Assembly: GCF_005954645.2 (NCBI RefSeq)
Contig: NZ_CP040695.2
Coordinates: forward strand, 3,596,001-3,660,000
Length of the DNA stretch: 64,000 nt
Origin: Nocardioides sp. S-1144
GTDB taxonomy: Bacteria; Actinomycetota; Actinomycetes; Propionibacteriales; Nocardioidaceae
Reading direction: 5' to 3'
Both the position numbers and the translations under genes were made by a program. This document shows positions 42,156 through 51,939 of the stretch, one piece after another; the first letter of the stretch is position 1, and every line of letters starts with the position of its first letter. The notes under the pieces were generated by a model. That model worked only from the letters and a program-made list of their open reading frames with translations. It was not told the origin of the DNA and made no database searches.

Positions 42156-42944
42156 TCAGCGGCGCAGGACCCGCCACACCAGCAGCACCGCGACCAGCCC
42201 GGCGAGGCCCTGCTTCCAGTAGCTCCTCGCCAGCACCGGGAGCACCGCCGCCCCGAGGTTGAGCGCGTCGTCGTCCGGCGGCCGGTTCGGGACGGCGCGC
42301 GGCGGCGGTACCGCCCGCGGCGCGGGGGCCGGTGCCGCCGGTTGGGCCGCGGGCTGGGGAGCGGCCGCCGCGGCGTCCGCGATCGGGGTGGGCTCGAGGT
42401 CGGGCGCGAACGTCGTCGGCGTCGCCTCGAGCTCGGACGCCGGCTCGGACGCCGGCTCGGGCGCGGGCGGGTCCGGCTCCGGCTCGGGCGGCGCCGTGAG
42501 GCGCTGCTCGAGGCAGGCCACGAACTGGCCGAGCAGCTTGTCGGAGACGTCCTGCATGACGCCGCGCCCGAACTGGGCCGGCTTGCCGGTGATCGCGAGG
42601 TCGGTGACCACCTCGACGTCGGTGGCCGGCCCGCTCGCGCCGGCGTGCTCGACCATCGACAGCGCCACCTTCGCCCCGGCGGTGCCGTTGCCGCGCTTGT
42701 CCTTGCCCTTGGCGTCGACCAGGAACCGGTGCGCGGCGTCGTCCTTCTCGACGAAGGTGCCGGAGCCGTTGTAGACCAGCGCGATCGGGCCGAGCTTGAC
42801 CTTGACCGAGCCGGCGAAGGTGGCGCCGTCGGCCGAGGTGACCTGGGCACCCGGGAAGCACTCGGCGAGCGCTGCGATGTCCTGGAAGGCCGCCCACGTC
42901 TCCTCGACGCCGATCGGGACGGTGAACCGGTGGGTGAGGTCCAT
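42156..42944 (-). CDS. coxG: CoxG-like SRPBCC protein
   Basis: This 262-residue protein has an SRPBCC domain (about 1-150; FTVPIGVEETWAAFQDIAALAECFPGA at the start and GKPAQFGRGVMQDVSDKL near its end). A Pro/Ala/Glu linker follows, then a C-terminal hydrophobic helix (LAGLVAVLLVWRVL) that should anchor it in the membrane. CoxG recruits CO dehydrogenase to the membrane in Afipia. Here it is the last gene of coxSLMG, 10 nt after coxM, and may tether this hydroxylase. Confidence 0.88.
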   Translation of the reverse strand: MDLTHRFTVPIGVEETWAAFQDIAALAECFPGAQVTSADGATFAGSVKVKLGPIALVYNGSGTFVEKDDAAHRFLVDAKGKDKRGNGTAGAKVALSMVEHAGASGPATDVEVVTDLAITGKPAQFGRGVMQDVSDKLLGQFVACLEQRLTAPPEPEPDPPAPEPASEPASELEATPTTFAPDLEPTPIADAAAAAPQPAAQPAAPAPAPRAVPPPRAVPNRPPDDDALNLGAAVLPVLARSYWKQGLAGLVAVLLVWRVLRR

Positions 42945-42954
42945 CGGCGTCCCC

Positions 42955-43809
42955 TCAGCCCCCGGCCGCGGCGAGCACCGCGCGCCGGGTCAGCACCGTC
43001 GACAGGTGCCGCCGGTAGTCGGCGGCGCCGTTGAGGTCGGACGGCGGGTTGGCGCCGTCGGCCGCGTGCGCGGCGGCCGCGCGGACGGCGTCGTCGGTGA
43101 CGGGCTGCCCCGCGAGCGCGTCCTCGACGGTGCGGGCCCGCAGCGGCGTGTTGCCCATGTTGGTGAGCCCGATCCGCGCCTCCGCGATGGTGGCGCCGTC
43201 GACCCGCACGGCCGCGGCCACCGCCACGATCGGCCACTGGTGCGCCACCCGCACGAACTTCTCGTAGTGCGCGCCCCACCCGGTGTGCTTGGGCACCCGG
43301 ACCTCGGTGAGGATCTCGTCCTCGCCGATCGCGGTCTCGAAGAGGTCGACGAAGAACTCCTCGGCCGGGACCGTGCGGCTGCCGCCGGGTCCCGCGATCA
43401 CGAACTCGGCGCCGAGGGCGAGCGTGGGAGCCCCCAGGTCCCCGGCCGGGTCGGCGTGGGCGAGGGCGCCGCCGAAGGTGCCGCGGTGCCGGATCTGGGC
43501 GTCGGCGAGGTGCTCGACCGCCTTGCTGATCAGCGCCGCGTGCTCGGCGACCAGCGGGTCGGACCCGACCACCGCGTGCGGCGTCATCGCCCCGATGACG
43601 ATCGCGTCGCCGTCGTCGCGGACGCCGCGCAGCGAGGCGATCTTGCCGAGGTCGATGACGACCTCGGGGGCGTTGAGACGCATCCGCAGCACCGGCAGCA
43701 GGCTCTGCCCACCGGCGATGATCTTCGCGTCGTCGCCGTGCTCGGCGAGGGCCGCCAGCGCGTCCTCGACGGACGTCGGCGCCAGGTAGTCGAACTGCGC
43801 GGGGATCAT
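42955..43809 (-). CDS. coxM: Molybdenum hydroxylase FAD-binding (medium) subunit
   Basis: This 284-residue subunit passes electrons from the iron-sulfur subunit to FAD. The FAD pyrophosphate loop is KIIAGGQSLLP (about 29-39), the second is HRGTFGGALAHADPAGD, and a C-terminal four-helix/beta domain follows. The order S-L-M, with M after L, is the form II arrangement. The ATG overlaps the coxL stop (ATGA), so translation is coupled. Confidence 0.92.
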   Translation of the reverse strand: MIPAQFDYLAPTSVEDALAALAEHGDDAKIIAGGQSLLPVLRMRLNAPEVVIDLGKIASLRGVRDDGDAIVIGAMTPHAVVGSDPLVAEHAALISKAVEHLADAQIRHRGTFGGALAHADPAGDLGAPTLALGAEFVIAGPGGSRTVPAEEFFVDLFETAIGEDEILTEVRVPKHTGWGAHYEKFVRVAHQWPIVAVAAAVRVDGATIAEARIGLTNMGNTPLRARTVEDALAGQPVTDDAVRAAAAHAADGANPPSDLNGAADYRRHLSTVLTRRAVLAAAGG

Positions 43810-46289
43810 GAGCCCGCTCCTTCCGTGCTGCTCGGGCCGGGTTCGGCGTCGGGGTCGAAGTGCGGCATCGCCGCCTCCTGCGTCGCGGGTCCGCCGTCGT
43901 GGCCGTGGCCGGGTGCGTTGATCGCCATCCAGACCCGCTCGGGCGTGCACGGCATCTGGACGTCGGTCACGCCGAGGTGCCGCACGGCGTCGACGACGGC
44001 GTTCACCACGGCCGGGGTCGAGGCGATCGTGCCGGCCTCGCCCACGCCCTTGGTGCCGAGCGAGTTGGTCGTCGCCGGCGTCGTGGTGTGGTCGATCTCG
44101 AAGCTGAGCGTGTCGGCCGCCGTCGGGAGCAGGTAGTCGACGAACGACCCGGACACCAGGGTGCCGGCGTCGTCGTGGACCGCCTCCTCCCACAGCGCCT
44201 GCGCGATGCCCTGCACCAGGCCGCCGTGCATCTGCCCGGCCACGATCAGCGGGTTGACGATGTTGCCGATGTCGTCGCAGCACACGTACTTGCGGATGTT
44301 GACCGCACCGGTCTCGGTGTCGACCTCCATCGCGCACAGGTGCGTGCCGTGGGGGTAGTTGAAGTTCACCGGGTCGAAGGTCGCCTCGGCGTCGATCGAC
44401 GGCTCGGCCCCGTCGGGCAGGTTGTGCGCGGCGAAGGCCGCCGTGGCGATCTCCGTCAGGCCGATGCCCTGGTCGGTGCCGACGACCTGGAATCGCCCCT
44501 CGTGGAACTTCAGGTCGTCCTCGCTGGCCTCCAGGAGGTGGGCGGCGAACGGGAGCGCCTTCTCGATCACCTTGTCGGCCGCGCGGACCAGCGCCTCGCC
44601 GCCGACGACCAGCGACCGCGAGCCGTAGGTGTCGAGACCCTTGTGCGCGATCTGGGTGTCGCCGTGCAGCACCTCGACGTTCTCGAACGGGACGCCGAGC
44701 CGGTCGGCGACGATCTGGCTGAACGCCGTCTCGTGGCCCTGCCCGTGCGAGCTCGCGCCGGTGACGACCTCGACCGTGCCGGTGGCCAGCATCCGCACGC
44801 TCGCGTGCTCCCAGCCGCCGGCGCCGTAGTCGAGCGAGCCCAGCACCCGGCTCGGCGCGAGGCCGCACATCTCGGTGAACGTCGAGATGCCGAGACCGAG
44901 CTGGACGGTGTCGCCGGACTCCCGGCGCCGCTTCTGCTCGGCCCGCAGCTCGTCGTACCCGAACATCTCCATGGCCCGCGCGGTGGCGGCCTCGTAGTTG
45001 CCGGAGTCGTACTCGAGGCCGGCCACCGTGGTGAAGGGGAACTCCTCGTGGGTGATCCAGTTCTGCTGGCGGATCTGCATCGGGTCGACCCCGACCTCGG
45101 CGGCCAGCTCGTCCATCATCCGCTCGACGCCGAAGGTCGCCTCGGGCCGGCCGGCGCCGCGGTAGGCGTCGGTCCACGTGGTGTTGGTGAGCACCGTCTG
45201 GCAGTTGAACTGGTAGGCGGGGAACTTGTAGATCGCGTTGAACATGAACGCGCCGAGCACCGGGACGCCGCCGCCGACGATGGCGACGTAGGCGCCGAGG
45301 TCGGCGAGGAGCTCGACCTTGAAGCCGGTGACGGTGCCGTCCTTCTCGGCCGACATGGTCAGCTTCTGCCACTGGTCGCGACCGTGGTGGCCGCTGACGA
45401 GGCTCTCGCTGCGGGTCTCGGTGTACTTGACCGGCTTGCCGAGCCGCCGTCCGACGGCGAAGGCGATCATCTCCTCCGGCGTCTGCTGCAGCTTGCCGCC
45501 GAACCCGCCGCCGACGTCGGGCGCGATCACCCGGATCTTCGACTCGGGGACGCCGGTCGTCGCGGCCAGCGCGAAGCGCAGGATGTGCGGGATCTGGGTG
45601 GCCGACCAGATGGTGATCTGCTCGCCGGTGGGGTCCACGACCACCGAGCGCGGCTCCATGAACGCCGGGATGAGCCGCTGCTGGCGGTACTCGCGCTCGA
45701 TGACGACGCCGTCGGTGCGCGCCTTGGCGATGGCCTCGTCGACGTTGCCGCCGGTGCCGGCCTCCTCGGAGTCGAAGCGCCAGAACGCCGACTTGTTGGT
45801 GCCGAGGTCGGGGTGGGCCAGCACCTCGTCCTTGATGGCGTTCTTGAGCCCCACGACGGCGGGCAGCTCCTCGTAGTCGACGTCGACCAGCTCGGCGGCG
45901 TCGCGCGCCTCGGCGGCGGTCCGCGCCACGACGACCGCGACGATCTCGCCGGCGAAGGCGACCCGGTCGCTGGGCATCGGCAGGTGCGTGGGCGTGACCT
46001 GCTCCGGCGTGATCGGCCAGGCGTTGATGCAGGCGCCCTGCGTCTCGCCGAGGTCGGCGCCGGTGAGCACGGCCACGACGTTGGTGGACGCCGTCGCCTC
46101 GGCGGTGTCGATGCCGTTGATCCGGGCGTGCGCGAAGGGGCTGCGGACCATCGCGAGGTGCAGCATCCCGGGGAGGGTGATGTTGTCGGTCCACCGGGTG
46201 CGACCGGTGATGAGGCGCTGGTCCTCCTTGCGCCGGCGGTCGCGGCCGATCTCCTTCTGCGCCTCGGGGGCGTCCTGGACGGCGGTCAC
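43806..46289 (-). CDS. coxL: Molybdenum hydroxylase large subunit (form II CoxL-like)
   Basis: This 827-residue subunit carries the molybdopterin cofactor. The active-site loop reads AYRGAGR (375-381), the form II signature, instead of AYXCSFR of true form I CO dehydrogenase; the copper-binding Cys is absent. The catalytic Glu lies in KGVGEAGT near the C-terminus, and [15 protein letters not shown] and [11 protein letters not shown] are conserved. Substrate could be CO, an aromatic, a purine or another heterocycle. The GTG overlaps the coxS stop (GTGA). Confidence 0.93.
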
Positions 46290-46777
46290 GAGCTGACCCC
46301 CTCGGACCGGCCCTGCGCCGCCGCGTGCTGCACGGCCTTGACGATGTTGTGGTAGCCGGTGCAGCGGCACAGGTTGCCCTCGAGCCCGAGCCGGATCTCC
46401 TCCTCGGACGGGTCCGGGTTCTCGGCCAGCAGCGCCGTCGTCTGCATGATCATCCCCGGGGTGCAGAAGCCGCACTGCAGGCCGTGGCACTCGCGGAAGG
46501 CCTCCTGCACCGGGTGCAGCTCGCCGCCGTCGTGCGTGGCGGCGAGGCCCTCGATGGTGGTGACCTGGGCCCCGTCGGCCTGCACCGCGAGCACGTTGCA
46601 CGACTTCACGCTGGTGCCGTCGAGGTGCACGGTGCACGCGCCGCAGTTGCTGGTGTCGCACCCGATGACGGTGCCGGTCTTGCCGAGCTTCTCCCGCAGG
46701 TACTGCACCAGCAGCATCCGCGGTTCGACGTCGTCGGCCACCTTGGCGCCGTCGACGGTGAGGTTGATCCGGGTCAT
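46286..46777 (-). CDS. coxS: Molybdenum hydroxylase [2Fe-2S] small subunit
   Basis: This 163-residue subunit holds two iron-sulfur clusters. The plant-ferredoxin-like one uses CDTSNCGAC and a later Cys in VKSCNVL; the second uses CHGLQCGFC and CRCTG. It receives electrons from the molybdenum centre. The ATG at 46777 has GGGAGAG upstream. It is first in the coxSLMG operon, with a palindrome at the promoter. Confidence 0.94.
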
Positions 46778-46803: not shown

Positions 46804-46817
46804 CGCGCAGCTGCGCG
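46804..46817. promoter_or_regulatory. 14-bp palindrome in the coxS 5' leader
   Basis: CGCGCAGCTGCGCG is a perfect palindrome 27 bp upstream of the coxS ATG, adjacent to the GTGAC-N4-GTCAC site. It could be a second operator or an RNA hairpin in the leader. Confidence 0.35.
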
Positions 46818-46831
46818 TGACCCACGTCACG
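46816..46831. promoter_or_regulatory. Candidate operator GTGAC-N4-GTCAC at the cox promoter
   Basis: The palindrome CGTGAC-CCAC-GTCACG overlaps the minus-strand -10 box TAGCGT (46829-46834) and the expected transcription start. The same GTGAC-N4-GTCAC core occurs at 48712-48725, upstream of the GAF/SARP-like regulator gene. A shared binding protein is inferred. Confidence 0.5.
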
Positions 46832-46929
46832 CTAGGCGGGGAGGGTTGGCCGGGGGTTGGCGAGCGCGTCGGGCCGGCGCCGGGGGCCCGGCCACGTTTG
46901 CGGGTCCGTGCGCCGGAGACAGTCGGCAC

Positions 46930-47436
46930 ATGACCTACCTCCTCGTCGCGTCGTGGACCCTGGTCGCGGTGCTGGCCGCGATCGCCCTCACCGGGTCGCG
47001 CCGCTGGCACCGCAACGTCACCGCCTGGACCCGCCCCGGGGCGGCGGAGCCGGCCCCGGAGGGCCACACCCTGCTCGACGTGCGCAACTGGGCCGCGCTG
47101 GTCGTCGTGGGCGGCTTCCTGCTGGTCGTCACCCTCGACCACGTGCGGTTGAGCGAGGAGGAGCTGGAGGAGGCGACCGACCTCGCCGTCGGCCTGGCCT
47201 CCGGCCCGGGGGTCACGGCGCAGCGGATCGCCGCCGAGGCCGCCGTCCTGCTCGACCGCGACCTGGAGGCCGTCGACGTGAGCGACGAGGTCGACCCGGA
47301 GGGCGAGGACTCGAACACCTGGTACGAGGTCCGCCCGGCGCGCGACTCCGACTCCGACGACCTCCTCGAGCCGGTCGTGTGCGTGCAGCTCTACTCCGAC
47401 ACGGCGAGCGCGAACGCCGGGCCGTGCCTCGACTGA
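46930..47436 (+). CDS. Membrane protein of unknown function
   Basis: This 168-residue protein has two membrane helices (about 2-20 and 55-74) and an acidic C-terminal domain of about 90 residues with two cysteines, probably outside the membrane. I recognise no family. It lies on the opposite strand within the cox locus, between coxS and the GAF regulator, so it might be transcribed from the cox promoter region in the other direction. The ATG at 46930 (MTYLLVASW) is the only sensible start. Confidence 0.65.
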   Translation: MTYLLVASWTLVAVLAAIALTGSRRWHRNVTAWTRPGAAEPAPEGHTLLDVRNWAALVVVGGFLLVVTLDHVRLSEEELEEATDLAVGLASGPGVTAQRIAAEAAVLLDRDLEAVDVSDEVDPEGEDSNTWYEVRPARDSDSDDLLEPVVCVQLYSDTASANAGPCLD

Positions 47437-47457
47437 CCCGTCGTGGACCGGCCGGCG

Positions 47458-48687
47458 TCAGTGGGCGGCGGCCAGCCGCGCCTTGAGCAGCGGCTTGGCC
47501 CGGTGTGCGCTCTCGCCCAGGACGGCGAGGCAGTGCTCGACCACGGCGGTGTCGTAGGGCGAGCGCTCGGCGTAGGTGAGCACGGCGTCCGGGTCGGGCT
47601 CGGCCAGCAGCGCCTCGCGGACGGCGACGGCGACGTACTCCCCCAGCTCGGCCAGCGCGGGCGAGTTGGTGCCGGGCAGGAGGTCGCCGCCGTAGCACTC
47701 GACGGCCTCGGCGACCCGTCCGCGACGCAGCAGCCCGAGCACGTGGTCGACGTCGGTGTCGATCGGCATCAGCAGCTTGTAGGGGCGCGAGGAGAGCTGG
47801 CCGCCGAGGGCGGCGCGCAGGTGGGACACCTCGGCCTTGAGGGTCGAGAACGTGACCGCCTGGTCGCCGTACACCAGGGCGTGGAGCTGCTCGAGGCTGA
47901 GCCCGCCGGGGTGCAGCGCGAGCAGCGCGAGCACCTCGGTCTGCCGGCGGTTGAGCAGCAGCCGCTGGCCGTCGAGGCGCACCTCGGCGGTGCCGAGGAG
48001 GGTGAGCACGAGGCCCGGGTCGCCGGTGTCGTCGAGCGCGCGGGCCGAGGGGTGGTGGCTGGAGTGCGGCAGCGCGGTCTCGATCAGCCGGGCCATCACC
48101 CGTGCCGTCGCCAGGCCGATGGGGTGGGTGCGGTCCCAGGTCGTCGACAGGTCGAGGACGCCGAGCTGGCGGCCGCTGACGGGGTCGTGGACCGGCGCGG
48201 CCCAGCAGACCCAGTTGTGCACGATCGAGGCGTAGTGCTCGGCGCTGAAGACCATCGACGGCGCGTCGGTGCGGTTGGCCAGGTCGAGGGCGTTGGTGCC
48301 GATCGACTCGTCGTCCCAGCGCCCGCCGGGGACGAAGTTGACCGTCTCGGCCTTGCGGCGCATCACCCGGCCGCCGTAGGTCCACAGGATGCGGGTGTCG
48401 GCGTCGGTGACGGCGAGCACGAGGTCGCCGTCCTGGGCGGTGCGGCGCAGCTCCTCCTCGACCCGCTCGACCGCGACCTGCAGCGGCGAGTCGCGCCAGA
48501 TCGCGGCGGTCTCGGACTCGTCGGCCAGCGGCGCCGCCGTCAGCTCGCTGTCGATCGCGGCGCCGGAGCGCGCCCAGCTGGTGAGGATCTCGGGCCGCAC
48601 GAGGGGTGCCACCTGGTCGCCGTGCTCGACGAACGTCGTCCACGCGTGGTGGCACTCTCGCTTGCGGGCGTCCAGCTCCGACTGCAT
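47458..48687 (-). CDS. GAF-domain regulator with SARP-like winged helix
   Basis: This 409-residue protein has an AcoR-like N-terminus (TSWARSGAAIDSEL and the GAF region VLAVTDADTRILWTYGG to HDPVSGRQLGVLDLS, about 30-210). Its C-terminal winged helix is of the OmpR/SARP type (LTLLGTAEVRLDGQRLLLNRRQTEVLALLALHPGG, about 230-330). The usual AcoR partner domains are Fis-type helices, so this fusion is unusual. It lies between coxS and xdhC and probably controls the hydroxylase. The ATG at 48687 is fixed by a -10 box TACCGT 7 nt upstream, with a palindrome over the -35 region. Confidence 0.85.
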   Translation of the reverse strand: MQSELDARKRECHHAWTTFVEHGDQVAPLVRPEILTSWARSGAAIDSELTAAPLADESETAAIWRDSPLQVAVERVEEELRRTAQDGDLVLAVTDADTRILWTYGGRVMRRKAETVNFVPGGRWDDESIGTNALDLANRTDAPSMVFSAEHYASIVHNWVCWAAPVHDPVSGRQLGVLDLSTTWDRTHPIGLATARVMARLIETALPHSSHHPSARALDDTGDPGLVLTLLGTAEVRLDGQRLLLNRRQTEVLALLALHPGGLSLEQLHALVYGDQAVTFSTLKAEVSHLRAALGGQLSSRPYKLLMPIDTDVDHVLGLLRRGRVAEAVECYGGDLLPGTNSPALAELGEYVAVAVREALLAEPDPDAVLTYAERSPYDTAVVEHCLAVLGESAHRAKPLLKARLAAAH

Positions 48688-48694
48688 GTCGTGC

Positions 48695-48700
48695 ACGGTA
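48695..48700 (-). promoter_or_regulatory. -10 box TACCGT, leaderless start of GAF regulator
   Basis: TACCGT on the minus strand ends 7 nt before the ATG at 48687. Confidence 0.55.
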
Positions 48701-48711
48701 CAACGCCGCGT

Positions 48712-48725
48712 GTGACCGGGGTCAC
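48712..48725. promoter_or_regulatory. Candidate operator GTGACC-GG-GGTCAC
   Basis: This perfect palindrome lies 12 nt upstream of the GAF regulator -10 box, over its -35 region. It shares the GTGAC-N4-GTCAC core with the coxS promoter site, which suggests that one protein, perhaps the regulator itself, binds both. Confidence 0.5.
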
Positions 48726-48750: not shown

Positions 48751-49875
48751 TCAGCCGTGGATGCGACCCTCCCGCGTCGCCAGCGGCTGCCCGCTGCCAC
48801 CCCAGCGGCCGGCGATGAACTCCGCGGCGATGCTGATCGCGGTCTCCTCGGGGGTCCGGGCGCCGAGGTCGAGGCCGATCGGGCTGGACAGTCCGGCCAG
48901 CTCGGCCTCGGTGAGCCCGGCCTCGCGCAGCCGGGCCATCCGGTCGTCGTGGGTGCGCCGGGAGCCCATCGCGCCGACGTAGGCCACCTCGGGCAGCCGC
49001 AGCGCCACCTCGAGCAGGGGGACGTCGAACTTCGGGTCGTGGGTCAGCACGGTCACCACCGTCCGGCCGTCGACGGCGCCGGCCTCCTGCTCGGCCGCGA
49101 GGTAGCGGTGCGGCCAGTCGACGACGACCCGGTCGGCGTCCGGGAAGCGGCTGGCGGTGGCGAAGACCGGACGCGCGTCGCAGACCGTCACGTCGTAGCC
49201 GAGGAAGGCCCCGACCCGGGCCACCGCGGCGGCGAAGTCGATCGCGCCGAACACGAGCAGGCGCGGCTTGGGCGCGAAGGCCCACACGAACACCCGCATC
49301 CCCTCGCCGCGGCGCTCGCCGTCGGGCCCGTAGGTGAGCGTCGCGTTCGCCCCCTGCGCCAGCAACCCCAGGGCGTCGTCGCCCACGGCGTCCGTGGCGC
49401 GGTCGGACCAGAGGGGCGAGGACGCCGGCGACTCCGTTCCCGGGCGGACGACGAGCCGGGTGCCGAGCCGGGCGGGGTCGGGGTGCTCGATGACGGTGGC
49501 GAGGGCGACCGGTCGGCCGGCCTCCACGTCGGCGGCGATCTCGGCGAGCTCGGGGAAGGTGTCGCGCGAGACCTCCTCGACCCAGACGTCGAGGATGCCG
49601 CCGCAGGTCAGCCCGACGGCGAAGGCGTCGTCGTCGGAGACGCCGTAGCGGTGCAGCACCGGCTCGCCGGAGGCCACCACCTCCTGGGCGAGGTCGTAGA
49701 CGGCGCCCTCGACGCAGCCGCCGCTGACCGAGCCCACGGCGGTGTCGTCGGGACCGACCAGCATCGAGGCGCCGGGCGGCCGCGGGGCCGAGCGGAACGT
49801 CGCCACGACGGTGCCGACGCCGACGGTCTCGCCGGCCTCCCACCACCGCAGCAGCTCCGGGAGCACGTCACGCAC
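48751..49875 (-). CDS. XdhC/CoxF-type molybdenum hydroxylase maturation protein
   Basis: This 374-residue protein binds the molybdenum cofactor during insertion into the hydroxylase large subunit. The N-terminal XdhC domain has ATFRSAPRPPGASMLV and SGGCVEGAVYD with the conserved Cys, and later GLTCGGILDVWVE. The C-terminal Rossmann domain has LLVFGAIDFAAAVARVGAFLGYDVTVCDARP and AYVGAMGSRRTHDDR. The GTG overlaps the coxE stop by 8 nt. It follows coxD and coxE, the usual maturation set. Confidence 0.9.
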   Translation of the reverse strand: MRDVLPELLRWWEAGETVGVGTVVATFRSAPRPPGASMLVGPDDTAVGSVSGGCVEGAVYDLAQEVVASGEPVLHRYGVSDDDAFAVGLTCGGILDVWVEEVSRDTFPELAEIAADVEAGRPVALATVIEHPDPARLGTRLVVRPGTESPASSPLWSDRATDAVGDDALGLLAQGANATLTYGPDGERRGEGMRVFVWAFAPKPRLLVFGAIDFAAAVARVGAFLGYDVTVCDARPVFATASRFPDADRVVVDWPHRYLAAEQEAGAVDGRTVVTVLTHDPKFDVPLLEVALRLPEVAYVGAMGSRRTHDDRMARLREAGLTEAELAGLSSPIGLDLGARTPEETAISIAAEFIAGRWGGSGQPLATREGRIHG

Positions 49876-51010
49876 GGGCCACCACCTCCACCAGCTCCTC
49901 GTAGGTCGCGAGCGTGTGCCCGGCGACCAGCGCGTCGACGTGCGGCAGCACCGCCAGGATGCCCTGCTGCACCGGCTCGTAGCCGGTCTTGCCGCGGTGC
50001 GGGTTGACCCACACGACGCGGTGCGCCACCGCGCGCAGCCGGCGCACCTGCTCGCCGAGGAGCACGGCGTCGCCGCGCTCCCAGCCGTCGCTGAACACCA
50101 CGACGACCGCGCCGCGAGCCGTGCCCCGCCGGCCCCAGCGGTCGAGGAAGACCTTCAGCGTCTCGCCCAGGCGGGTGCCGCCGGACCAGTCGGGGACCGC
50201 CTCGCCGGCCGCGACCAGGGCGCGCTCGACGTCGTGGGTGCGCAGCGCGCGGGTGAGGTGGGTCAGCCGGGTGCCGACGGTGAACGTCTCGACCCGGCCC
50301 CCGCGGACCGCGAGGGCCCGGGTGAGCGTGTGGGCCAGGCGGAGCAGCGCGTCGGCGTAGCCGCTCATCGACCCGGAGACGTCGACGAGCAGCACCACGC
50401 GACGCGGGCGCAGCCGGCGGTGCCGCCACTGGATCGGCGCCGGCTCCCCGTGCAGGCGCAGGCTCGCCCGGATCGTGCGCGCGGCGTCGACCTGCCCGCG
50501 CCGCCACGGCTCCTGCCGCACGGTGCGGCGCATCGGCGGCCGGGGCCGCAGCGTCGAGAACAGCCCGGCAAGGCGGTGCTTCTCGGCGGCCGTCATCGCC
50601 GCGACGTCACGGTGCCGCAGGGTCTCCAGGTCGCTGGCCAGCGCCCGGACGACGTCCTCGCGCTCCTCACCGTCACCGTCGCCGTCCTGCTCGTCGAGGG
50701 CGAGGTCGGCGGGCACCGGCTGCTCGCGCGGCGCGGCCGGACGCTCCCGCGGGAGTCCGCTGCGGTGGTCGAAGAACGCCTCGAAGACCTGGTCGTGGCG
50801 CAACAGGTCGTCGGGCGAGGAGCAGAGCGTCGCGCGGCCCGCCACGTAGGTCGCCCGTCGGTCCGCGAGCCCCACGGTCGCGACGGCGGCGAGGAAGCCG
50901 GCGGCGCGGTCGTGGGTGACCGGGACGCCGGCGGCGCGCAGCGCGCGGGTGAAGGCGAGCAGGACCTCGTCGACCTCGTGGGTGGTTCCCGGCGCGGACG
51001 GGGTGCTCAT
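49868..51010 (-). CDS. coxE: CoxE-like von Willebrand factor A protein
   Basis: This 380-residue protein pairs with a MoxR ATPase in maturation of the active site. The C-terminal VWA domain has the MIDAS motif DVSGSMSGYAD and a later TRLTHLTRAL and VFSDGWERGD. The N-terminal half is helical with EVLLAFTRALRAAGVPVTHDRAAGF. In Afipia, CoxD and CoxE mature the Cu-Mo centre of CO dehydrogenase; here the CoxL lacks the copper Cys, so its task may differ. The ATG overlaps the coxD stop. Confidence 0.9.
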   Translation of the reverse strand: MSTPSAPGTTHEVDEVLLAFTRALRAAGVPVTHDRAAGFLAAVATVGLADRRATYVAGRATLCSSPDDLLRHDQVFEAFFDHRSGLPRERPAAPREQPVPADLALDEQDGDGDGEEREDVVRALASDLETLRHRDVAAMTAAEKHRLAGLFSTLRPRPPMRRTVRQEPWRRGQVDAARTIRASLRLHGEPAPIQWRHRRLRPRRVVLLVDVSGSMSGYADALLRLAHTLTRALAVRGGRVETFTVGTRLTHLTRALRTHDVERALVAAGEAVPDWSGGTRLGETLKVFLDRWGRRGTARGAVVVVFSDGWERGDAVLLGEQVRRLRAVAHRVVWVNPHRGKTGYEPVQQGILAVLPHVDALVAGHTLATYEELVEVVARA

Positions 51011-51894
51011 GCCCGCAGCATCTGGTCGAGGGCCTGCTTCACCCGCTCGCCGTCCTCGCGGTACTTGACCAGCGCGCCGAGGGTGCGCGACGCGGTCTCG
51101 AGGTCGAGCTCGGTGGTGCCCAGCTGGTGCAGGGCGCGGGCCCAGTCGAGGGTCTCGGCGACGCCGGGCGGCTTCTCGAGGTCGCCGCGCTCGCGCAGCC
51201 CCTGGACGACGCCGACGACCTGCTCGGCGAGGGCCGCGGACACCTGGGGTGCCCGGGACCGCACGATCGCCACCTCACGGGCCAGCGCGGGGTGGTCGAT
51301 CCAGTGGTAGAGGCAGCGCCGCTTGGTGGCGTCGTGCAGCTCGCGGGTCCGGTTGGAGGTGAGGACGACGACCGGGGGCGTCGCCGCGCGGATCGTCCCG
51401 AGCTCGGGGATGCTCACCTGGTAGGTCGAGAGCACCTCGAGCAGGAACGCCTCGAACTCGTCGTCGGCGCGGTCGACCTCGTCGACGAGCAGCACCGCCG
51501 GGCTCCGCAGCGCGGTCAGCACCGGCCGAGCGAGCAGGAACCGCTCGTCGTACAGCGACTTCTCGGCCTCGGCCAGGCCGCCGTCGGCGTCCGCGTCGCC
51601 GCGGCCGACCGCCTCCAGCGCGCGCAGGTGCAGGACCTGGCGCGGGAAGTCCCAGTCGTAGAGCGCCTGCGTCACGTCGATGCCCTCGTAGCACTGCAGC
51701 CGCACCAGCGGGACGTCGAGCGCCTCCGCCAGCGCCTCCGCCAGCGCGGTCTTGCCCGTGCCGGGCTCGCCCTCCAGCAGCAGCGGCCGCTGCATCGCGA
51801 GCGCGAGGTAGGCGACGGTGGCCAGGTCGTCGTCGCACAGGTAGCCGGTCGCCGCGAGTCGTTCGGCGGTCTCCGCAGTCGACGTCGGGGTCAC
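51007..51894 (-). CDS. coxD: MoxR-family AAA+ ATPase (CoxD-like)
   Basis: This 295-residue ATPase acts as a chaperone in metal-centre maturation. Walker A GEPGTGKT (about 41-48), Walker B VLLVDEVDRAD, sensor I VVLTSNRTRELHDATKRRCLYHWIDHP and the arginine region are intact. The RLQCYEGIDVTQALYDWDFPRQ segment is typical of CoxD. The GTG is set by a -10 box TAGCCT 6 nt upstream, so coxD-coxE-xdhC has its own leaderless promoter apart from the sigma/MobA-like genes behind it. Confidence 0.92.
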   Translation of the reverse strand: MTPTSTAETAERLAATGYLCDDDLATVAYLALAMQRPLLLEGEPGTGKTALAEALAEALDVPLVRLQCYEGIDVTQALYDWDFPRQVLHLRALEAVGRGDADADGGLAEAEKSLYDERFLLARPVLTALRSPAVLLVDEVDRADDEFEAFLLEVLSTYQVSIPELGTIRAATPPVVVLTSNRTRELHDATKRRCLYHWIDHPALAREVAIVRSRAPQVSAALAEQVVGVVQGLRERGDLEKPPGVAETLDWARALHQLGTTELDLETASRTLGALVKYREDGERVKQALDQMLRA

Positions 51895-51900
51895 CGTGCC

Positions 51901-51906
51901 AGGCTA
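51901..51906 (-). promoter_or_regulatory. coxD: -10 box TAGCCT, leaderless start of coxD
   Basis: TAGCCT on the minus strand ends 6 nt before the GTG at 51894. Confidence 0.55.
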
Positions 51907-51939
51907 GTCACCGCCCTGTTGGCGGGAGGTTGGGCGCGG

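Follow-up and report, generated by a model that had tools for sequence, protein, structure and literature searches.

SARP activators and CRP-type regulators are the described systems closest to the locus analyzed here. The available part of PMC10936776 describes SARP targets as carrying direct repeats that are 11 or 22 bp apart, with 8 bp between the 3′ repeat and the −10 element, and places activating CAP boxes at −61.5 and −41.5. The motif of S. coelicolor Crp is GTG(N)6GNCAC, as cited in the accessible text of PMC10033298, and the GlxR consensus is TGTGA-N6-TCACA (accessible parts of PMC7999487 and PMC4254451). In the portion of PMC13098282 at hand, Crp1 and Crp2 are described as not binding the huc promoter. 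Our literature search on mycobacterial CRP found no treatment of cox promoters, and that on GAF/coxL regulators found nothing on point. DhaR, the regulator of dihydroxyacetone kinase in E. coli, is a sigma-54-type activator.

We analyzed a window of 64 kb, which holds a cox-type gene cluster, a regulator gene, a pair of palindromes, and a pair of direct repeats. We consider it likely that the local activator uses the repeats, and that CRP palindromes over the coxS start site and at the regulator promoter probably serve to repress both genes. This reading draws on the elements themselves, their conservation, positions, and genome-wide distribution, together with the predicted fold of the regulator, and from these we infer the binders and the sign of regulation.

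The cox-type operons and the neighboring regulator gene

All genes of the cluster lie on the minus strand. The first gene of the proposed target operon encodes a coxS-like [2Fe-2S] subunit (46286..46777) and is followed by genes for a coxL-like molybdopterin subunit with an AYRGAGR site (43806..46289), a coxM-like subunit named from its position and the conserved neighborhood (42955..43809), and a coxG-like protein (42156..42944), giving the order S-L-M-G. The maturation genes encode a CoxD/MadB-like AAA ATPase (51007..51894), a CoxE-like VWA protein (49868..51010), and an XdhC/CoxI-family protein (48751..49875). The gene order, the AYRGAGR site, and the NCBIfam scores are in line with the family of molybdenum hydroxylases that often goes by the name of form II CO dehydrogenase. 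The operon scored below every NCBIfam cut-off, with glyceraldehyde dehydrogenase alpha as the top match (660 versus a cut-off of 790 bits) and the CO dehydrogenase model TIGR02416 at 628.5 versus 991 bits. Because no CO dehydrogenase model reaches its cut-off, the cox gene names are kept as labels only. Order, site, and scores do not support CO oxidation by this operon, and its identity as an aerobic CO dehydrogenase is unproven. A divergent open reading frame of 168 amino acids (46930-47436, plus strand) lies between coxS and the regulator gene; it has no Pfam or NCBIfam match, and among 80 relatives of the locus it was found in that of Nocardioides sp. 1609 alone (L044, 77%).

The regulator gene (47458..48687, minus strand) was listed from a GTG at 48696, while we prefer the ATG at 48687. 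Its closest named relative comes from Nocardioides sp. 1609 (98%). The product had been described as GAF/SARP-like in the initial annotation, and the predicted structure bears this out. An AlphaFold2 model based on 53 aligned homologues reached a mean pLDDT of 79.9 and a pTM of only 0.48, so the packing of its domains is unreliable. In fold comparisons, which included Foldseek, model residues 34-221 matched DhaR (Z 20.9), whose sequence also matched the GAF half with an E value of 1e-7. Residues 221-412 matched the SARP domain of AfsR, taken from its promoter complex (Z 14.6, 192 residues, rmsd 4.7), and EmbR (Z 12.9). Trans_reg_C was found in 53 of 53 sequences at E ≤1, with the window regulator at 22.2 bits, below the cut-off of 26.2. 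BTAD had no Pfam match at E ≤1; the alignment of the model nonetheless covers the SARP domain of AfsR in full, up to residue 412. By its predicted fold, the regulator is a DhaR-like GAF sensor fused to an AfsR-like SARP DNA-binding half. At L164 (439-1434) and similar loci of genus g7, regulator homologues stand tail to tail with a gene for Dak1 (dihydroxyacetone kinase), which recalls the DhaR-like sensor half. The window's genome carries a second GAF plus winged-helix regulator (L035, 976-2157, minus strand) that by eye is divergent from a flavin-monooxygenase-like gene.

Promoter elements and their conservation

GTGAC-N4-GTCAC has exactly two copies in the window, where dinucleotide shuffles lead one to expect 0.18; none of 100 shuffles reproduced the pair. 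Palindrome 1, GTGACCCACGTCAC (46817..46830), is a predicted CRP-type box that covers the −10 and the start site of coxS, and palindrome 2, GTGACCGGGGTCAC (48712..48725), is a predicted CRP-type box upstream of the regulator −10. Both had been recognized in the initial annotation, which gave the first as 46816-46831, thereby adding one symmetric base pair, and which placed them at the coxS −10/start and in the regulator −35 region, as we also find relative to TAGCGT and TACCGT. Read on the minus strand, the promoter of coxS is CCAACC-N5-CCAACC-N9-TAGCGTGACGTGGGTCAC, with the −10-like TAGCGT (46829..46834) 9 bp past the second CCAACC and its final two bases within palindrome 1. Because this hexamer runs into the left half-site, the start site of coxS is expected under the palindrome. 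The regulator promoter reads GTGACCCCGGTCAC-N11-TACCGT on the same strand, followed by the ATG at 48687; the palindrome is centered about 31 bp before this codon, upstream of TACCGT (48695..48700), in the spacer/−35 region. The start codons of the regulator (48687) and of coxD (51894) lie 7 to 8 bp past −10-like hexamers, which suggests leaderless transcripts.

Both palindromes fit GTG(N)6GNCAC. The full TGTGA-N6-TCACA has two perfect sites in the genome, neither of them in this cluster; its outer T/A pair is absent at coxS and half present at the regulator, where one of the two bases is found. Judged from the −10 positions, the palindrome centers fall near +1 at coxS and at about −31 at the regulator. 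Activation instead of repression by CRP, at either promoter or at both, would agree with the account of GlxR as mostly an activator in the available part of PMC4254451; however, we regard it as unlikely, since the centers match neither of the activating CAP positions given in the accessible text of PMC10936776. Repression by occlusion is therefore the likelier outcome, and with boxes on the coxS −10/start and the regulator spacer/−35, cAMP-CRP would most likely repress the enzyme operon as well as the production of its activator.

The direct repeats came to light when sequences upstream of coxS were screened for over-represented gapped words; this returned CCAACC repeats preceding CCTAGC that were then aligned. 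The coxS copy, CCAACC-N5-CCAACC (46844..46860, minus strand), is the sole exact copy in the genome and the proposed GAF-SARP operator. A second proposed operator, CCAACC-N5-CCAACA (51917..51933, minus strand), precedes coxD, the first gene of coxD-coxE-xdhC, with a −10-like TAGCCT (51901..51906, minus strand) 10 bp past it and 6 bp before the GTG start. Across the 4.43-Mb genome, the combination of two repeats and a −10 has exactly two occurrences (46829-46860 and 51901-51933), as compared to 0 for the reversed control. The gap of 9 to 10 bp between repeat and −10 is counted from hexamers and becomes 8 at coxS if heptamers are counted.

The comparison with orthologous cox loci covered 80 loci carrying regulator relatives, most of which keep the cluster order. 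For the promoter counts, the near-duplicates L044 and L048 were dropped, leaving 64 of 66 coxS and 79 of 81 regulator promoters, each of at least 130 bases. L046 and L048 come from different contigs of a single assembly (Nocardioides lijunqiniae S-531) and have the same cluster with identical promoter matches, either a duplication or an assembly artifact. The conserved core of the palindrome is GTGA-N6-TCAC, found exactly in 33 of 64 coxS and 55 of 79 regulator promoters, counts that come from relatives with common ancestry and are not independent observations. Shuffles predict 0.2 and 0.1 exact matches, respectively, and five controls with altered spacing or letters gave 0 of 64 and 0 to 2 of 79. 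When one mismatch was allowed, the core was found in 54 of 64 and 66 of 79 promoters, compared to 0 to 4 for the five control arrangements. Exact matches occupied both promoters in 23 of the 64 loci, one in 30, and neither in 11. In contrast to these promoters, no palindrome was found upstream of xdhC, coxE, or coxD (0/70, 0/67, and 0/66 relatives) or in the coxD promoters selected for the repeat count (0/62). The placement is also kept: TANNNT starts 4 bp ahead of the box in 46 of the relatives' coxS promoters and lies 22 to 25 bp past the first base of the box in 44 regulator promoters.

Conservation of the repeats at coxS was complete at one mismatch. Among 66 coxS promoters, 43 carried the exact 11-bp direct repeat and all carried it with at most one mismatch, with TANNNT 9 or 10 bp downstream in 64. 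In the reduced set, CCAACC-N5-CCAACC with at most one mismatch was present in 64 of 64 promoters versus 0 to 3 for four control arrangements, those with altered spacing giving 0, 1, and 3; the reversed control is uninformative because the motif reads the same backward. At coxD, the repeat was found with at most two mismatches in 58 of 62 promoters, kept from 81 sequences after loci without a usable start had been skipped. The regulator's own promoter lacked the repeats (0/79 at one mismatch or fewer; 1/81 at two). In 20 genomes with an orthologous regulator, 14 of 19 exact repeat copies lay within 6 kb of the orthologue.

The palindrome beyond the cluster

The initial annotation had offered, as its simplest model, that the palindrome is a shared, autoregulated operator, through which the GAF-SARP regulator would control its own gene and coxS. 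That the element is shared, conserved, and placed where it should affect initiation at both promoters holds, but binding by the neighboring regulator appears quite improbable. A third copy, of which the initial annotation saw none by eye, is indeed absent from the window; 20 further exact copies lie elsewhere in the genome, bringing the total to 22, far from any such regulator. All but one of the 22 are outside called genes (both window copies and 19 of the other 20), the exception overlapping the first bases of a gene, and the stretches that hold them are 89% coding. Gene calls were made by a codon-usage script trained on eight window genes. This distribution, brought out by the genome search that had been suggested as a check, speaks against a private operator. 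The looser GTGA-N6-TCAC has 64 sites in the genome versus 10 for the reversed pattern, and 40 of the 57 examined lie outside called genes. None was present in the 3.6-kb stretch of the paralogue at G000:C1:1636-1637 kb.

A scan of ten genes adjoining seven palindrome sites identified an SSF symporter with its DUF485 partner, an H+-PPase, a sugar-type binding protein, a dicarboxylate symporter, glutamine synthetase III, a MIP channel with a divergent IclR regulator, a GntP permease, and an AMP-binding (acyl-CoA-synthetase-like) enzyme. Transporter and carbon-metabolism genes of this sort are typical members of CRP/GlxR regulons. At one site (L017 4674-4708, G000:C1:382173-382207), two palindromes 21 bp apart with CTAG between them sit between the DUF485/SSF symporter pair and a divergent MFS-type transporter.

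The frequency of the palindrome did not depend on the regulator. Within the Nocardioidaceae, 20 genomes with an orthologous regulator averaged 13.9 copies and 17 genomes without one averaged 15.4 (p 0.40), although 14 of the latter retain more distant homologues. The three genomes with no homologue (G017, G021, and G073) had 8, 14, and 9 copies versus 4, 2, and 0 for the control. A search across the order, using 117 genomes drawn from a larger group, found 36 genomes without any regulator homologue, which together held 319 palindrome copies versus 107 for the control. Across genus g7 (37 genomes), the palindrome was barely above the reversed control (431 versus 354).

Autoregulation finds support in the conservation of the palindrome at both promoters and in its recurrence in paralogous systems. 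We compared 26 regulator homologues at 35-39%, leaving out L155, whose regulator start was uncalled; an aldehyde dehydrogenase gene begins within 16 of the 26 stretches, and one of these genes was checked by Pfam. CAAC at an 11-bp period, usually as GCAACG, was present in 14 of the 16 aldehyde dehydrogenase promoters against a shuffle expectation of 0.025, in 9 of 11 within the Nocardioidaceae and 5 of 5 in other families. The palindrome was found at 11/11 aldehyde dehydrogenase promoters in the Nocardioidaceae but 0/5 outside, and at 11/12 versus 1/13 of the corresponding regulator genes. At L154, L157, L159, L161, L162, L167, and L174, the aldehyde dehydrogenase promoters carry the palindrome GTGACTAGCGTCAC, a CRP-type box that encloses the whole −10-like TAGCGT. 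It is mainly because the pairing of regulator and target palindromes recurs in this second system, among Nocardioidaceae homologues at 36-39%, that we keep autoregulation as a small possibility. Against it stand the genome-wide spread of a motif that fits CRP/GlxR boxes and its regulator-independent frequency, the repeats at coxD in promoters without the palindrome, the absence of repeats at the regulator's promoter, and the fact that SARPs bind direct repeats. Moreover, outside the family the repeats persist with the regulator and the palindrome does not. Thus, the repeats track the regulator and the palindrome tracks the host lineage, which is what a palindrome read by CRP should show.

A CRP of 225 residues is encoded in the window's own genome. 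Over its C-terminal part, the protein is almost the same as M. tuberculosis CRP (3mzh, 3d0s; E 3e-77) and is also related to GlxR chains; it carries GASRETVNKALADFA, the recognition helix as in those M. tuberculosis structures. Slightly less probable again than autoregulation is that some other global factor reads GTGA-N6-TCAC-like sites, for example, Rex or a further CRP/FNR relative: the genome does encode a Rex-type DNA-binding domain and a second short cNMP-binding frame of 139 amino acids, but the Rex box, although GTGA-N6-TCAC-like, has A/T inside its half-sites (GTGAA-N4-TTCAC), where C/G is preferred here, and the neighboring genes fit carbon control better. That the two palindromes are functionless products of chance is ruled out by their conservation, far above the shuffle expectation, even with the exact box missing from 31 of 64 coxS and 24 of 79 regulator promoters.

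Regulatory model and relation to known systems

In the model with a local activator and CRP, the GAF-SARP regulator would bind CCAACC-N5-CCAACC ending 9 to 10 bp upstream of the −10 and would recruit RNA polymerase as AfsR does. It is predicted to act on two operons, coxS-coxL-coxM-coxG and, for maturation, coxD-coxE-xdhC. The cell's global cAMP receptor protein, of the CRP/GlxR type, would occupy the palindromes at the coxS −10/start site and in the regulator spacer/−35 region, and full expression would depend both on an inducer that the GAF domain senses and on CRP leaving its boxes. We lean, with less assurance, toward a broader view of this arrangement as a recurrent two-key promoter. GAF-SARP activators, a little-described family, would read subfamily-specific 11-bp repeats, CCAACC at molybdenum hydroxylase genes and GCAACG-like at aldehyde dehydrogenase genes; in the Nocardioidaceae, cAMP-CRP boxes would overlie the target start and precede the activator gene so that CRP shuts both, and this wiring would have been acquired in two paralogous systems.

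These results yield a regulatory map, open to testing, for a molybdenum hydroxylase cluster (form II “cox”) that is widespread but whose function is unproven. They move the proposed site of the regulator from the palindrome to the repeats, which can be searched for in other genomes. The model would also carry SARP-type activation beyond antibiotic genes, to catabolic operons equipped with a small-molecule sensor, and the suggested link to cAMP control hints at the conditions that call for the enzyme, as well as at its substrate.

The regulator resembles SARP activators such as AfsR in the fold predicted for its C-terminal 190 residues and in the 11-bp-spaced direct repeats close upstream of the −10. 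It differs from them in that its SARP half forms the C terminus, preceded by a GAF sensor, and has no BTAD match in Pfam, and in that its predicted targets are molybdenum hydroxylase rather than antibiotic genes. The SARP-LAL protein PimR, as described in the accessible part of PMC5930380, likewise uses heptamers with 4-bp spacers in 11-bp units, but its repeat sequence is CGGCAAG and its protein architecture is different. With DhaR, the regulator shares the N-terminal GAF half; unlike DhaR, it continues into a SARP half. Last, the palindromes resemble the boxes of S. coelicolor Crp, C. glutamicum GlxR, and M. tuberculosis CRP in their two-fold motif, promoter position, and carbon-metabolism neighbors, and the recognition helix of the genome's CRP is identical. 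In contrast to those boxes, they prefer inner C/G, have weak outer T and A, and are placed over the transcription start of a SARP-type promoter in one case and ahead of the activator gene in the other.
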